A stretch of DNA of 64,000 nucleotides, from assembly GCA_930990665.1 (NCBI GenBank), contig CAKNQN010000003.1, positions 62,001 through 126,000 on the forward strand, read 5' to 3'. Source of the stretch: an uncultured Clostridia bacterium. Lineage in GTDB: Bacteria > Bacillota > Clostridia > Christensenellales > Borkfalkiaceae. This document shows positions 1,182 to 7,343 of this stretch, piece by piece. The notes under the pieces are model-generated. The model had not been told where the DNA came from and made no database searches. It was given only the letters and a program-made list of their open reading frames with translations. How positions within the stretch are numbered: the stretch's first letter is position 1; the number at the start of each line of letters is the position of its first letter. The translations under genes and the position numbers were made by a program.

Positions 1182-2267
1182 TCAGTCAAAATAATAGGGT
1201 TTGCCCGTCTTTTCCGACTCGTAGATGCCTTCGAGGATGCGAGTGACGACGGCGGCCTGGTCGGCCGTGACGTACAGTTTGCCCTTGCCGAGGATGGCGT
1301 TGGTGAAGCAGGCGGACTCGAGATCTTCGGGTGCGCCGCCCGCGGCGCCGTCAAAGAAGGCGACGGAAGCGCCTGCAAGGTCGGGGGTGATCATGACCTG
1401 CTTGCCGCCGAGGACCGTGTTGATGCGGAGGCCGTTGAGCATATCCGCTCCGCCCTTGTCGCCGCAGATCGTCGTGATCGCTTCTTTCGGGTCGGCAATA
1501 TTCAGCGCCCAGCTGGATTTGAGGTAGATGACCGCACCGTTCTTCATGACGACGAAACCGAAAGCGCTGTCTTCGGCGGTGAACTTTTCGACATCCCAGT
1601 CGCCCCAGGCGTTGCCGGTATTCGTCTGCTTGTTGAGTTTGTGGAAGGTCTTGCCGACGCAGTAAGCGGGTTCATAGTTGTTCATCATGAACAGCGTCAG
1701 GTCGAGCGCGTGCGTGCCGATGTCGATCAGCGGGCCGCCTCCCTGCTTTTCCTGGTCGATGAACACGCCCCAGGTAGGAACGGCACGGCGGCGGATGGCG
1801 ATGGCTTCGGCGTAGTACACTTCGCCGAACATGCCTTCATCCGCGCGCGCCTTCATGTACAGCGCATCCGGACGGAAACGGTTCTGGTAGCCGATCGTGA
1901 GCACCTTGCCCGATTTGTCGCGCGCTTCCAGCATCTTTTTCGCCTCGGCATAGTTCATAGCCATCGGCTTCTCGCACAGAACGTGCTTACCCGCGTTGAG
2001 TGCCGCTACCGTGATCTCACAGTGCGCGCAGTTGGGGGTGAGAACGAGCACCGCGTCAATGCTCTTGTCTTTGAGAAGTTCTTTGTAATCGGTGTATACC
2101 GCGCTGTCGGGCGTGCCGAAATCTTCGCGCGCTTTGATCGCGCGCTCTTCGATGATGTCGCAGAATGCGACCATCTCCGACGCGGGGTTCCTCTTCTCTG
2201 CGGGCATGTGCTTGCCGTTGGCGATGCCGCCGCAGCCGATGACGCCGATCCTGATCTTTTTATCCAT
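1182..2267 (-). CDS. Gfo/Idh/MocA family oxidoreductase
   Basis: N-terminal Rossmann IRIGVIGCGGIANGKHMPA, central CEKPMAMNYAEAKKM, and GGGPLIDIGTHALDL motif typical of the family. Confidence 0.93.
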   Translation of the reverse strand: MDKKIRIGVIGCGGIANGKHMPAEKRNPASEMVAFCDIIEERAIKAREDFGTPDSAVYTDYKELLKDKSIDAVLVLTPNCAHCEITVAALNAGKHVLCEKPMAMNYAEAKKMLEARDKSGKVLTIGYQNRFRPDALYMKARADEGMFGEVYYAEAIAIRRRAVPTWGVFIDQEKQGGGPLIDIGTHALDLTLFMMNNYEPAYCVGKTFHKLNKQTNTGNAWGDWDVEKFTAEDSAFGFVVMKNGAVIYLKSSWALNIADPKEAITTICGDKGGADMLNGLRINTVLGGKQVMITPDLAGASVAFFDGAAGGAPEDLESACFTNAILGKGKLYVTADQAAVVTRILEGIYESEKTGKPYYFD

Positions 2268-2341
2268 TTTTTTATCCTCGCTTTTTATTTTTTGAATTTT
2301 TTCGCCGAAAGATTTTGCGCGATTTTATCGCATACGTACGG

Positions 2342-3070
2342 CTATTTTGCGAACCTGCGCATATTCTGCAGGCTCTTTTTCAGATACTCTTTTTCGCCGC
2401 AGGGGAACTTTTCCACCTCCAGCACCGCAAGCTCCACGCCCTGCGCCTTGGCCTGCGCAAACACGGCGGGCATGTCGATGACGCCCTCGCCGACAACGGG
2501 CTGATCGAGCGCCGCCGCGTCTCCTGCGGCCGCCTCCTTGATGTGTACCGCCTTCAGCTTTTCGCCCATCCCCTTCATGTACGAAACGGGATCTTTGCCG
2601 CCCACGTGCAGCCAGAAAACGTCCGTTTCCGCCGCGATGTGCGCATCTTCCACAAACTGTTTCATATAGTCGCCGCCGCCCGCAAATTCGTGCGCATGGT
2701 TGTGATAGCCGAGCACGATGCCGCGCTTTTCCAGAAGCGCCTTCGCTTCGGCCGTACTCGCAAGCAGCTCCGCATATTTCTCTTTGTCCGCAAAGGTCTC
2801 CGTCGCGACCCAGGGGATAAACACATATCGGATGCCGAGTTCATCGATGTACGGAAGATTTTCCGCGATCGCTGCCGCACCGATGTGCGCCGAAAGCGCC
2901 TGCAAATGGTATTTTTCCAGAAGCTTCTTCATCTCCGCGGGCGCCTTGCCGTAAAACCCCGCAAACTCGACGCCGTCGTATCCCGCTTCCGAGACGAGCT
3001 TCAGCATCTCTTCCGGGCCGTTCTTCTCCGCAAATACGCGGAGGCTGTAAAGCTGTACCGCAAGTTTCAT
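2342..3070 (-). CDS. Sugar phosphate isomerase/epimerase (AP endonuclease 2-like TIM barrel)
   Basis: MKLAVQLYSLRVFAEKNGPEEMLKLVSEAGYDGVEFAGFYG..., YHNHAHEF, WLHVGGKDPVSYMKGMGEKLKAVHIKE. Confidence 0.92.
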   Translation of the reverse strand: MKLAVQLYSLRVFAEKNGPEEMLKLVSEAGYDGVEFAGFYGKAPAEMKKLLEKYHLQALSAHIGAAAIAENLPYIDELGIRYVFIPWVATETFADKEKYAELLASTAEAKALLEKRGIVLGYHNHAHEFAGGGDYMKQFVEDAHIAAETDVFWLHVGGKDPVSYMKGMGEKLKAVHIKEAAAGDAAALDQPVVGEGVIDMPAVFAQAKAQGVELAVLEVEKFPCGEKEYLKKSLQNMRRFAK

Positions 3071-3086
3071 CGCTCTTTCCTCCCCG

Positions 3087-4058
3087 TCATGCCCACCACA
3101 TGTTCGTGTTGCCCTGGCGGATGATGCTTTCCTGCACGAGCTTGACCGCCTTTTCCAGCCCCTCTTTCGGGGACATCAGCCCGTCTTCATGCTCGATGGA
3201 GATGGAATCGTCGTAGCCGGCAATGAAAAGTTCGGAAAAGATCTGCTTCCACAGCGTCGCGTCATGCCCGTAACCGAGGGTGCGGAAAGACCAGGAACGC
3301 GCGGGGAAATCGGTGAAAGATGTGGGGTCCAGCACGCCGTTTTTGCGCACGTTGTGCCCGAAAAGCTGGGTGTCCTTGGCGTGGAAATAATAGATCGCCT
3401 TGTGCGCGCCCAGCTCGCGGATGACTTCGGGTATGTCCATCCCCTGCCAGAAAAGGTGGGAAGGGTCGATGTTTGCGCCGATCATGTCGCCCACCGCGTC
3501 GCGAAGGCGCAGGCAGGTGGCGGGATTGTATACGCAGAAGCCGGGGTGCATTTCGAGCGCGATGCGCTTTACGCCGTTATCCGCCGCAAACTTCACCGCC
3601 TTTTTCCAGTACGGAATGAGCACTTCGTTCCACTGCCATTCGAGCGATTTCGGATACTCCGGCGGCCACGCCGCGATGTTCCACGAAGGAGTTTTCGCAT
3701 ACGGGTCGGCGCCCGGACAGCCGGAAAAGGTCACGATGCGGTCGATGCCGATCTGCCCCGCGAGCACGCAGGCGGCTTCAAAATCCGCCTCGTAGCGGGC
3801 GGCTTCCGCTTTGTCCGGATGCACGCAGTTGCCGTGCACCGAGAGCGCGGATATGCCCATGTTGTGGCGCTTGAATGTCTCCAGAAGCTGTTCGCGCGCC
3901 TTCTTGTCCTTGCTCAGCACGAGCGCATCGGCGTGCGCCTTGCCGGGATACCCCCCGACGCCCAGCTCGAACTCGTCCACTCCCAGCCCGGAAAGATATT
4001 CCAGGCTTTCGTCCAGGCTGTATCCGCCCAGAATACCGCTGACTACGCTGATTTTCAT
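3087..4058 (-). CDS. Sugar phosphate isomerase/epimerase (AP endonuclease 2-like TIM barrel)
   Basis: LEYLSGLGVDEFELGVGGYPGKAH..., ALEMHPGFCVYNPATCLRLRDAVGDMIGANIDPSHLFWQGMD, YFHAKDTQ, SIEHEDGLMSPKEGLEKA. Confidence 0.93.
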   Translation of the reverse strand: MKISVVSGILGGYSLDESLEYLSGLGVDEFELGVGGYPGKAHADALVLSKDKKAREQLLETFKRHNMGISALSVHGNCVHPDKAEAARYEADFEAACVLAGQIGIDRIVTFSGCPGADPYAKTPSWNIAAWPPEYPKSLEWQWNEVLIPYWKKAVKFAADNGVKRIALEMHPGFCVYNPATCLRLRDAVGDMIGANIDPSHLFWQGMDIPEVIRELGAHKAIYYFHAKDTQLFGHNVRKNGVLDPTSFTDFPARSWSFRTLGYGHDATLWKQIFSELFIAGYDDSISIEHEDGLMSPKEGLEKAVKLVQESIIRQGNTNMWWA

Positions 4059-4157
4059 TCTTTTCTCCCTTTGCCGCCGCGGCGGCGTTTTGATCGTCGG
4101 CGCCCCGCCCTTTCCATGGGCGCGGCGCCCTTCTTATGGCGCTCTTTTCCGCGCCTT

Positions 4158-4186
4158 ATCCGCCCTGCGCGCCGCGCAGGGCGGAT
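4158..4186. other. Perfect GC-rich inverted repeat (intergenic hairpin)
   Basis: atccgccctgcgcgccgcgcagggcggat; just downstream of the stop of the minus-strand gene at 4191. No clear U-tract, so not called a terminator. Confidence 0.6.
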
Positions 4187-4190
4187 GATT

Positions 4191-5249
4191 TCAGAGTTTT
4201 TCTTTGATGACTTCGTTCTCGTGTGCGGAACGCGCCGCCGCTTCCATCAGGCGCATGACGCGCACGACCTCTTCGCGGCGGATGGTCCTCGGCTCCTCGC
4301 CGGCGCAGGCCGCGGCAAAATTCTTGTAAAACGCCCACGGCTCGGCATGCACCACGGGCAGCGGAAGCTGCTGAACGGAATCGTCCGCGCGCGGCGCCAT
4401 CGTGCGGGTGAAACCGTTGCCCGCCTTGATCCCGCGAAGGGAGGCGTCCTTTTTCACAAGCACGCGCGTCATGCCGCCGGAAAGATCCCAGTCGGCGACG
4501 GTGGCGGTGCCTTCGGTGCCGTATACCTGCCAGCGCGGCAGATTGCGGAAGCAGTCCGTCGCGACGACGATGCGGTATTTGATACCGTTTTCAAAATCCA
4601 CGGTGAGGTTGAACCCGTCGTCCACCTCTTCCCCGTAAATATAGCTGTATTCGCAGTACAGGCTGCGCACGGGCGAAGGGATCATCAGCAGCATCTGGTC
4701 GATGAGGTGTACGCCCCAGTCCAGCATCATGCCGCCCCCCTGCGCCGCCTTCTTGCGCCAGTCGCCCGGAATGCCGTTGCCCCCCATCACGCGCGATTCG
4801 ATGCAGTACACCGCACCCACCGCCTCGGTGTCGAAGATCTTCCTGACCGTCAGAAAATCGTCGTCCCAGCGACGGTTCTGGTGCACTTCAAACACGACGC
4901 CCGCCTTTTCCGCCGCGTCGTACATCTGTTCCGCCATGGCGGAAGTGAGCGTGATCGGCTTTTCGCAGATAATATTCTTGCCCGCCGCAGCCGCCGCCTG
5001 CACATACGGCAGATGAAAATCGTTGGGAGTGGCGATGAGCACCGCCCCGACCGATTTGTCCGCAAAGACCTCTTCGGCGCTCGCATAGGCACGCAGTCCC
5101 TGCTGCTCGGCAGCGCGGCCGCGCGCGGGGTCGATGTCGTATACGCCCGCAACCCGCAGCGGATGAGCAGGGTTCGTTTTACAGTATGCGGCGAGATTTT
5201 GCGCATGGTATCCGCCCATGCCGCCGAATCCGATGATGACAATGTCCAT
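4191..5249 (-). CDS. Gfo/Idh/MocA family oxidoreductase
   Basis: MDIVIIGFGGMGGYHAQNLAAY..., CEKPITLTSAMAEQMY, GGGMMLDWGVHLIDQML. Start placed at the internal Met that begins the Rossmann motif. Confidence 0.92.
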   Translation of the reverse strand: MDIVIIGFGGMGGYHAQNLAAYCKTNPAHPLRVAGVYDIDPARGRAAEQQGLRAYASAEEVFADKSVGAVLIATPNDFHLPYVQAAAAAGKNIICEKPITLTSAMAEQMYDAAEKAGVVFEVHQNRRWDDDFLTVRKIFDTEAVGAVYCIESRVMGGNGIPGDWRKKAAQGGGMMLDWGVHLIDQMLLMIPSPVRSLYCEYSYIYGEEVDDGFNLTVDFENGIKYRIVVATDCFRNLPRWQVYGTEGTATVADWDLSGGMTRVLVKKDASLRGIKAGNGFTRTMAPRADDSVQQLPLPVVHAEPWAFYKNFAAACAGEEPRTIRREEVVRVMRLMEAAARSAHENEVIKEKL

Positions 5250-5360
5250 AATAATTACTCCGTTTACGTTGACATTATTCCTGTGCAATGATATAATACC
5301 ATTAAATATTGCGCTTTTCTACTCATTTTTCCAAATAAATCTACCGAAAATTGACCTATT

Positions 5361-6164
5361 ATGAAAACTTCTTACTATTACGAATCCACGCACGACAAAA
5401 ACGACACGGTGGAATTTCACATCGGGCTCAGCGGCACGACGCTACCCCATTTTCACCGCAGCTTCGAGATGCTCTACGTCTGCCGCGGCAAGGCGCATTT
5501 TACCGTGAACGGGCAGTCCTTCGAAGCGGGCAGCGACGAGATCGCCTTTGTGCACAAGTGCTGCGTGCACGAGCTGGTGCCCGACGTCGATTTTACCGAC
5601 TTCGTCCTCATTATCGGGCCGCGCTTTTCGGAAGATTTTTCCAAGATCTTTCAGGCGCAGACACTGCAGCCACACCTCGCCGACCGGCAGTTCAACCGCA
5701 CCGTCCGCCCCTATTTCGAGACGCTTCACACCCTCGCCGGCCGTAAATCCCCCGCCGAACAGCTGGTCAAAAAGGGTCTCGTAAACGCGATCGTGGGCAG
5801 CCTCGTCGCACACTACCCCGCCGTACCCGTTTCCACCACTCCCAACATCGGCATCATCGTGCAGACGCTCAACTACATCGACGATCACTTCGCCGAACCC
5901 ATCACCCTCGACTCCATCTCTTCGGAATTCGGATACAATAAATACTATTTTTCCCGCCTTTTCAACTCCTACATCGGCGATACCCTGCACAGCTACATCA
6001 ACATGGTGCGCGTGCGGAAAGTCGTTTCCGCCGCCCGCAAAGACAGCGCCGCCAACCTCTCCTCCCTCGTGTTCGAAAACGGGTTCGACTCGATGACCAC
6101 CTTCTACCGCAACTTCTCCAAATATTACGACCGCCCGCCCAAAGAAGTTTTCCGCCGCCAGTGA
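5361..6164 (+). CDS. AraC family transcriptional regulator (cupin-type sensor plus HTH)
   Basis: N-terminal LPHFHRSFEMLYVCRGKAHFTVNGQSF; C-terminal ITLDSISSEFGYNKYYFSRLFNSYIGDTLHSYINMVRVRKV ... FENGFDSMTTFYRNFSKYYDRPPKEVFRRQ. Confidence 0.94.
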   Translation: MKTSYYYESTHDKNDTVEFHIGLSGTTLPHFHRSFEMLYVCRGKAHFTVNGQSFEAGSDEIAFVHKCCVHELVPDVDFTDFVLIIGPRFSEDFSKIFQAQTLQPHLADRQFNRTVRPYFETLHTLAGRKSPAEQLVKKGLVNAIVGSLVAHYPAVPVSTTPNIGIIVQTLNYIDDHFAEPITLDSISSEFGYNKYYFSRLFNSYIGDTLHSYINMVRVRKVVSAARKDSAANLSSLVFENGFDSMTTFYRNFSKYYDRPPKEVFRRQ

Positions 6165-6390
6165 CCCCCTCCCGCAGGGGCCGCGGCCGCGCAGCTGCAA
6201 ACGTGCCTCCATTGGCGTCTGAAAAACAGTTTGCCTGCGGGCGCAGGCTTCACACAAACTCTCGCCCGACCATTTCATCACGGCTTCGGGTCGATTTCCC
6301 GATCACAGGAATCGGGTTCTGAAAAAAAAGTCAGTTATCTACAAATAAACACGCATGCGGGGCCTGATGAGCCCCGCACGGAAAAAGAGA

Positions 6391-6429
6391 ACGCCCGCGC
6401 CGCAATTTTGCGGCGCGGGCGCTTTTTAT
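6391..6429. terminator. Bidirectional Rho-independent terminator between convergent genes
   Basis: acgcccgcgccgcaattttgcggcgcgggcgctttttatc; convergent araC-type gene (left) and thuA-like gene (right). Confidence 0.8.
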
Positions 6430-6530
6430 CAGTCTTTGACGCTGAATTCGGTAAGTCCCGGGCAGCCGAGCCCGTCAGGCACTCAGTCTTTGACGCTGAA
6501 CTCGGTAAGTCCCGGGCAGCCGAGCCCGTC
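6429..6530. repeat. Direct duplication of the 3' end of the ThuA-like gene (6429-6476 and 6483-6530)
   Basis: tcagtctttgacgctgaa(t/c)tcggtaagtcccgggcagccgagcccgtc occurs twice, 54 bp apart, with one mismatch. Confidence 0.95.
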
Positions 6531-7205
6531 GAGTACGGGGATCTGCGGCGCAACGTATTCCGCCGCCTGCGTGAGCAGTTTCTGCACCTCGGGGATGAGA
6601 TAGGTCGGGTAGGTCTCGTGGCCGGGATTGAAATAGAAAAATTTGCCGTTCCCGCGCTTGAAGACACAGCCGCCGCGCATCACTTCTCCGCCGCGGAACC
6701 AGCCGATGTATACGAGTTCGTCCGGCGCAGGGATGCCGAACGGCTCCCCGTACATCTCTTCCTGCGGAATATCGATGTATTCGCCCAGTCCGCGCGCGAT
6801 GGGATGGGTCATATCCACACACCAAAGGCGCTCATGCTCACCGTCTTCCCGCCATTTCAGCGTGCCCGGCGCGCCGGTCAGGCGCATGAACGGTTTGGAC
6901 TTGTGCGCCGAATGCAGAAAGACCATGCCCATGCCGCGATGCGCGCGATCCACGACCTTCTGCACCACCGCATCGGCTACGGCGTCGTGGTAGATGTGCC
7001 CCCACCAGAACATGACGTCCGTCCCTTCGATGATCTCGTCGGTCAGCGCGTCCGCACCCTTTTCATCGATGCGCACCGTCTGCACCTCGTTCCCCGCCTT
7101 GCGCAGAAAAGCGGCTATGCTCTCCGCCATCCCCGCAGGGTATGCCTTTTTCCCTTCCTCCGAGTCCATCGCAGCATTGTGTTCACACACGACCGTGATC
7201 TTCAT
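6483..7205 (-). CDS. ThuA domain-containing protein (trehalose utilization/GATase-like)
   Basis: MKITVVCEHNAAM..., TDEIIEGTDVMFWWGHIYHDAVADAVVQKVVDRAHRGMGMVFLHSAHKSKPFMRLTG, MTHPIARGLGEYIDIPQEEMYGEPFGIP. Confidence 0.92.
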   Translation of the reverse strand: MKITVVCEHNAAMDSEEGKKAYPAGMAESIAAFLRKAGNEVQTVRIDEKGADALTDEIIEGTDVMFWWGHIYHDAVADAVVQKVVDRAHRGMGMVFLHSAHKSKPFMRLTGAPGTLKWREDGEHERLWCVDMTHPIARGLGEYIDIPQEEMYGEPFGIPAPDELVYIGWFRGGEVMRGGCVFKRGNGKFFYFNPGHETYPTYLIPEVQKLLTQAAEYVAPQIPVLDGLGCPGLTEFSVKD

Positions 7206-7343
7206 TCCGAATCCTCCCCCGCCCGCGTTCGTGAAAGATCCTTCTTCAATTTCCCGCCGGGCGTTTTTTTGTTTCTATAGTATCATAAAAAATTGACTTT
7301 TTCCACGCAATTTTGGCTTTCTTTCTACCAAAAATTGTCTTAT

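Follow-up and report, generated by a model that had tools for sequence, protein, structure and literature searches.

What sugar chemistry is encoded by a six-gene cluster that carries two Gfo/Idh enzymes, two TIM barrels and a ThuA-domain protein? The cluster lies near the start of a 64,000-nucleotide stretch of an uncultured Clostridia bacterium of the Borkfalkiaceae (contig CAKNQN010000003.1, positions 62,001 to 126,000), called here the window, to which all positions refer unless otherwise given. The metagenome-assembled genome (MAG) containing it measures 1.5 Mb and is 74% complete, and the closest named relatives of the protein H of the cluster belong to chicken-gut MAGs, Candidatus Borkfalkia, Scatosoma and Gallimonas. 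Here it is proposed that the cluster is, with good probability, an inducible non-hydrolytic glucoside-degrading operon. The six open reading frames (ORFs) were confirmed at the positions and on the strands of the original prediction, all with strong Pfam matches, and the ORF list, Pfam and a search for CGDB (the DgpB family, PF19906) agreed with it that genes for a transporter, a classic hydrolase or a DgpB-like protein are absent from the cluster. The features are as follows:

1182-2267, minus strand: A1, Gfo/Idh protein of 361 amino acids, DgpA-type glycoside 3-dehydrogenase (Pfam, phmmer against the PDB)
2342-3070, minus strand: E, AP_endonuc_2 TIM barrel of 242 amino acids, 3-keto-beta-glucoside 1,2-lyase/O-glycoside beta-eliminase type (fold, profile and site residues)
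3087-4058, minus strand: H, AP_endonuc_2 TIM barrel of 323 amino acids, 2-hydroxy-3-keto-glucal hydratase type (fold, phmmer and residues)
4191-5249 (ORF to 5288), minus strand: A2, second Gfo/Idh protein, 352 amino acids from the ATG, probable 3-keto-glucose reductase (PDB matches, position)
5250-5360, no strand assigned: divergent araC/operon promoter region with a conserved operator-like element (31-locus alignment, promoter scan)
5361-6164, plus strand: AraC-family regulator of 267 amino acids, probably activating both the operon and ThuA (Pfam AraC_binding and HTH_18; conserved divergent position)
6483-7205, minus strand: ThuA-domain protein of 240 amino acids (Pfam PF06283; 240.7 bits to 1t0b)
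7279-7342, minus strand: second operator/promoter copy, upstream of ThuA (64-column matrix, genome-wide pattern)

In the proposed route, A1, with tightly held NAD+, would oxidise the glucose unit of a glucoside at C3, and E, as a metal-dependent enzyme, would take the C2 proton and eliminate the aglycone. H would hydrate 2-hydroxy-3-keto-glucal to 3-keto-glucose, which could return to glucose through A1 itself, closing the redox cycle, or through A2. The AraC protein would activate both the A2-H-E-A1 operon and the separate ThuA gene via two copies of one operator. We infer the four reactions, their order and beta-O-glucosides as the substrates.

Enzymes of the predicted route

A1, which is DgpA-like by sequence, would provide the glycoside 3-dehydrogenase that a non-hydrolytic pathway needs. 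Its best matches among PDB sequences (phmmer) are DgpA1 (9m3d, 394.5 bits) and DgpA (7xr9, 366.6 bits), the third match reaching 87 bits. With the DgpA homologue encoded in L129, a CGDB-containing operon from another Clostridia genome, it shares 55% identity. K100, D182 and H186 of A1, which we take to be the catalytic residues of Gfo/Idh enzymes, are invariant across 28 relatives. One characterised DgpA follows a ping-pong mechanism in which 3-oxo-glucose re-oxidises the enzyme-bound NADH, and it oxidises O- and C-glucosides alike (PMC11239390).

E groups with the 3-keto-beta-glucopyranoside-1,2-lyases AL1 and BT1 and with the O-glycoside eliminase AtOGE, both by sequence and by fold. The fold search with its AlphaFold model (mean pLDDT 97.9) gave the AL1 lyase (8tcd, E 6.4e-16) as best match and AtOGE (8bvk) at rank 12, and the profile score to AtOGE was 161.5 bits. 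In AtOGE the site has been described as His132, Asp163, His189 and Glu233, with the catalytic His134 and the alternative-site residues Glu39, His66 and Glu161 (PMC10628242). These correspond in E to His123, Asp150, His176 and Glu218, to His125, and to Glu35, His62 and Glu148, respectively. All eight are thus conserved, including the metal site and the catalytic histidine of a beta-eliminase, and in 45 relatives seven of the eight are invariant and Glu148 is nearly so.

The fold of H (predicted model, mean pLDDT 95.9) is best matched by the 2-hydroxy-3-keto-glucal hydratase AtHYD (8ro4, E 1.0e-18); the uncharacterised SCO6571 (2zds) ranks next. Sequence similarity to AtHYD is low but significant (phmmer E 1.5e-10), and both proteins have E169, H171, D198, H201, H226, K228 and E289 (numbering of H), which probably bind metal or take part in catalysis. 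By homology alone, H would be the hydratase of the pathway.

The nearest structures to A2 are the oxidoreductase 3e18 (325.5 bits) and DgpA2 (9m37, 186.9 bits). Its ORF offers a TTG at 5288 and an ATG at 5249 that is preceded by GGAG; the ATG is most likely the start, because the TTG lies only about 5 nucleotides from a predicted -10 element. A2 holds the position of the reductase in published operons, a homologue adjoins the HYD-like gene in the dgp-type operon L129, and A2 is probably a 3-keto-glucose reductase. An A2 orthologue is missing from two 94%-complete relatives, the best match being 34% in G005 and 32% in G023. At their loci (L065 in G005, L037/L139 in G023) AraC, the operator, H, E and A1 are retained in order, with the operator directly before H. 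Such an absence of A2 would be tolerable if A1 recycles itself with 3-keto-glucose.

Could the same protein families break down levoglucosan instead, or inositol or another polyol in the manner of IolG and IolE? The IolG and IolE models are among the top NCBIfam matches by E-value; however, the scores fall far below the equivalog cut-offs (IolG 104 against 355 bits, IolE 36.5 against 290, levoglucosan dehydrogenase 99 against 650), and the structure matches put keto-glucoside enzymes first. Inositol-pathway orthologues, which the original prediction had named among the outcomes that would overturn it, did not appear, and both readings were rejected on the NCBIfam cut-offs as hardly credible.

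O-glucosides, C-glucosides or other sugars

Operons with the same four steps have been described in Agrobacterium (PMC10628242) and for levoglucosan (PMC7676230), and the chemistry itself is already known elsewhere. The Agrobacterium tumefaciens GlycDH-AtOGE-AtHYD-Gfo operon (PMC10628242; 8bvk, 8ro4) resembles the present cluster in its two TIM barrels of AtOGE and AtHYD type, its Gfo/Idh protein, here a probable reductase, and the predicted order of oxidation, elimination, hydration and reduction. It differs in the oxidising enzyme, which is the flavoenzyme GlycDH in Agrobacterium and an NAD-type DgpA homologue here; in sequence, E and H sharing only some 23% identity with their Agrobacterium counterparts when the folds are aligned; and in lacking AraC and ThuA, which are additions here. 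The Alistipes AL1 and Bacteroides BT1 lyases (8tcd, 8tcr, 8tcs, 8tct) are the best profile and fold matches of E, at about 26% identity. The levoglucosan operon lgdA-lgdB1-lgdB2-lgdC (PMC7676230) is alike in its four reaction types and gene classes, but by the cut-off given above A1 does not qualify as a levoglucosan dehydrogenase.

The DgpA-type first enzyme is also common to the Dorea PUE-type DgpA-DgpB-DgpC operon (PMC8563793, PMC11170127). This raises the possibility of C-glycoside deglycosylation of the puerarin type, in which DgpA and a DgpC-like isomerase would cleave the C-C bond, and the DgpA homology of A1, including its identity to the L129 enzyme, speaks for it. On the other hand, no DgpB/CGDB or DgpC was found here, and the lyase is of AtOGE/AL1 type. 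CGDB had no match in this 74%-complete genome and none above the cut-off in 201 Borkfalkiaceae genomes, although the same search does find it in three other genomes. Neither E nor H has a blastp match at 1e-4 to the DgpC homologue of L129, their PDB profile matches include no DgpB-DgpC structure, and AtOGE, to whose type E is similar, cleaves O-glycosides and leaves C-glycosides intact (PMC10628242). With CGDB and DgpC not found, this reading was rejected as very improbable. The original prediction of a keto-sugar/glycoside catabolic cluster is thus upheld in its general form by the DgpA homologue A1, by the structure matches to lyase and hydratase and by the gene order, whereas its C-glycoside half is not. 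O-glucosides are the likelier substrates, because DgpB/CGDB was found neither in this genome nor, above the cut-off, in the family.

The L129 operon (G440:C2:124000-143900) comprises an MFS transporter, DgpA, CGDB, a DgpC-like TIM barrel and several flavin and iron-sulfur proteins, followed by HYD-like and A2-like genes, which it shares with the present cluster.

The same chemistry might act on other substrates, such as alpha-linked disaccharides (trehalose, sucrose), galactosides or glucuronides, in which case ThuA would be the clue to specificity. ThuA takes its name from trehalose utilisation and appears co-regulated with the operon, and the known homologues of E and H are distant enough for other sugars. 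However, the best matches of E are beta-glucopyranoside lyases, and one DgpA that has been studied acted on glucosides, whereas galactose, rhamnose and glucuronide glycosides were not substrates (PMC11239390). Pfam identified no DUF1080 3-keto-disaccharide hydrolase among the cluster proteins; BT2157 is a 3-ketotrehalose hydrolase of the DUF1080 family (PMC9007349). Such substrates are therefore considered unlikely, if somewhat less so than C-glycosides.

Several points weigh against a non-hydrolytic beta-O-glucoside operon. E, H and A2 are just about 20-30% identical to characterised enzymes, and the preference for sugar and anomer could differ. The 3e18 and DgpA2 matches fit an A2 that reduces 3-keto-glucose as well as one that oxidises a second glycoside. 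Some of the wider H loci have no recognisable E, and the cluster itself is without a transporter gene.

The operator-like element and the ThuA gene

The gap between araC and A2 is 111 bp long and strongly conserved in an alignment of 31 loci. It contains an araC-facing promoter with a perfect TTGACA-17-TATAAT (5269-5297, plus strand) and the operon promoter, TAGAAA-17-TATTAT (5321-5293, minus strand), which overlaps the -10 of the former. The poor -35 of the operon promoter lies inside the conserved element, as would be expected under control by an AraC-type activator, and the AraC protein is presumed to bind this operator-like element.

A 64-column operator matrix, from which this genome and the relative nearest to it had been left out, scored 74.9 bits for the operon copy (5295-5358), 30.3 for a copy upstream of ThuA (7279-7342) and no more than -20.3 anywhere else in the window, the null maxima being -18.4 (first-order model) and 15.4 (AT-rich model). 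The two copies have 49 of 75 bases in common in one register and 18-27 in others. A pattern derived from both, allowing at most three mismatches, occurs at only two sites genome-wide and its reversed control at none. The promoter scan did not find the araC-facing promoter in the ThuA copy. Because the only other copy found in the genome sits upstream of ThuA, this gene very likely belongs to the same regulon as the operon. The conserved operator-like element in the araC/operon promoter and its ThuA copy are new here.

The operon ends with ThuA in most relatives, and here and in the closest relative, L045, the gene stands across araC and has a copy of the element to itself; it appears to have been relocated out of the operon yet to have kept the same predicted control. 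Its Pfam score (PF06283) is 88.2 bits against a curated cut-off of 33.4. Conserved histidine and glutamate residues (H70, H73, H98, H101, H196, E197 and others) suggest that ThuA is an enzyme, and as far as found in a literature search it has been assigned no reaction or keto-sugar pathway function. ThuA would be described as a co-regulated fifth component. More tentatively, it could be a fifth pathway enzyme, for example with an isomer of a keto-sugar or a by-product as its substrate, beside a self-sustaining redox cycle of A1, lyase and hydratase that needs 3-keto-glucose as its sole acceptor; with such a cycle the two lineages named above could dispense with the reductase. This combined proposal is held as a possibility well short of the operon assignment itself.

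Just past the stop of ThuA, a 48-bp direct duplication repeats the 3' end of the gene (6429-6530, 98% identical, spacing 54). Two tandem copies of a 48-bp unit follow directly after the end of A1 (1082-1175).

Conservation in the family and neighbouring loci

The order AraC(divergent)-A2-H-E-A1-ThuA is kept in relatives, as the original prediction had asked to see, and reshuffled across Clostridia. The closest set consisted of 25 loci from other genomes with H at least 65% identical, many of them on short contigs, and neighbours were counted within 6 kb of H: E was present in 24, A1 and AraC in 23 each, A2 in 22 and ThuA in 16. This recurrence rules out a chance association of the genes. Among 37 more distant Clostridia loci, with shuffled orders, A1 was found at 21, A2 at 18, E at 12 and ThuA at 10. 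The cluster is patchy in the family: of 151 genomes, 20 have H. Of these 20, 19 also carry a single-domain ThuA that scores comparably, as do 7 of the 131 others (Fisher p ~2e-17, shared ancestry ignored); one of the seven, G062, has a broken contig with E, A1 and ThuA.

Recent transfer of the cluster between genera was considered from genus g3, where the identity of PurA is 76-78% and that of H 83-84%. No transfer is claimed, because A1 departs from this pattern.

An 828-residue protein encoded about 2.5-5 kb before the window start (L001:13013-15499, minus strand) looked glycosidase-like by eye. It was left out of the cluster because it has no Pfam match and its gene adjoins the cluster only here and in L045. 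Elsewhere in the same genome (L002:6312-9208, contig C13), an AraC regulator, an AP_endonuc_2 TIM barrel of 277 amino acids and a Gfo/Idh protein of 352 amino acids, 38% identical to A1, lie together and are possibly another keto-sugar route.

If the assignment is right, the oxidation-elimination-hydration route for glucosides would extend to uncultured Clostridia of the poultry gut, in a six-gene form. The combination of a DgpA-type oxidase with an AtOGE/AL1-type lyase would be the part set that separates O-glucoside from C-glucoside systems, and ThuA, a widespread domain, would gain a regulon together with a chemical setting for testing what it does.

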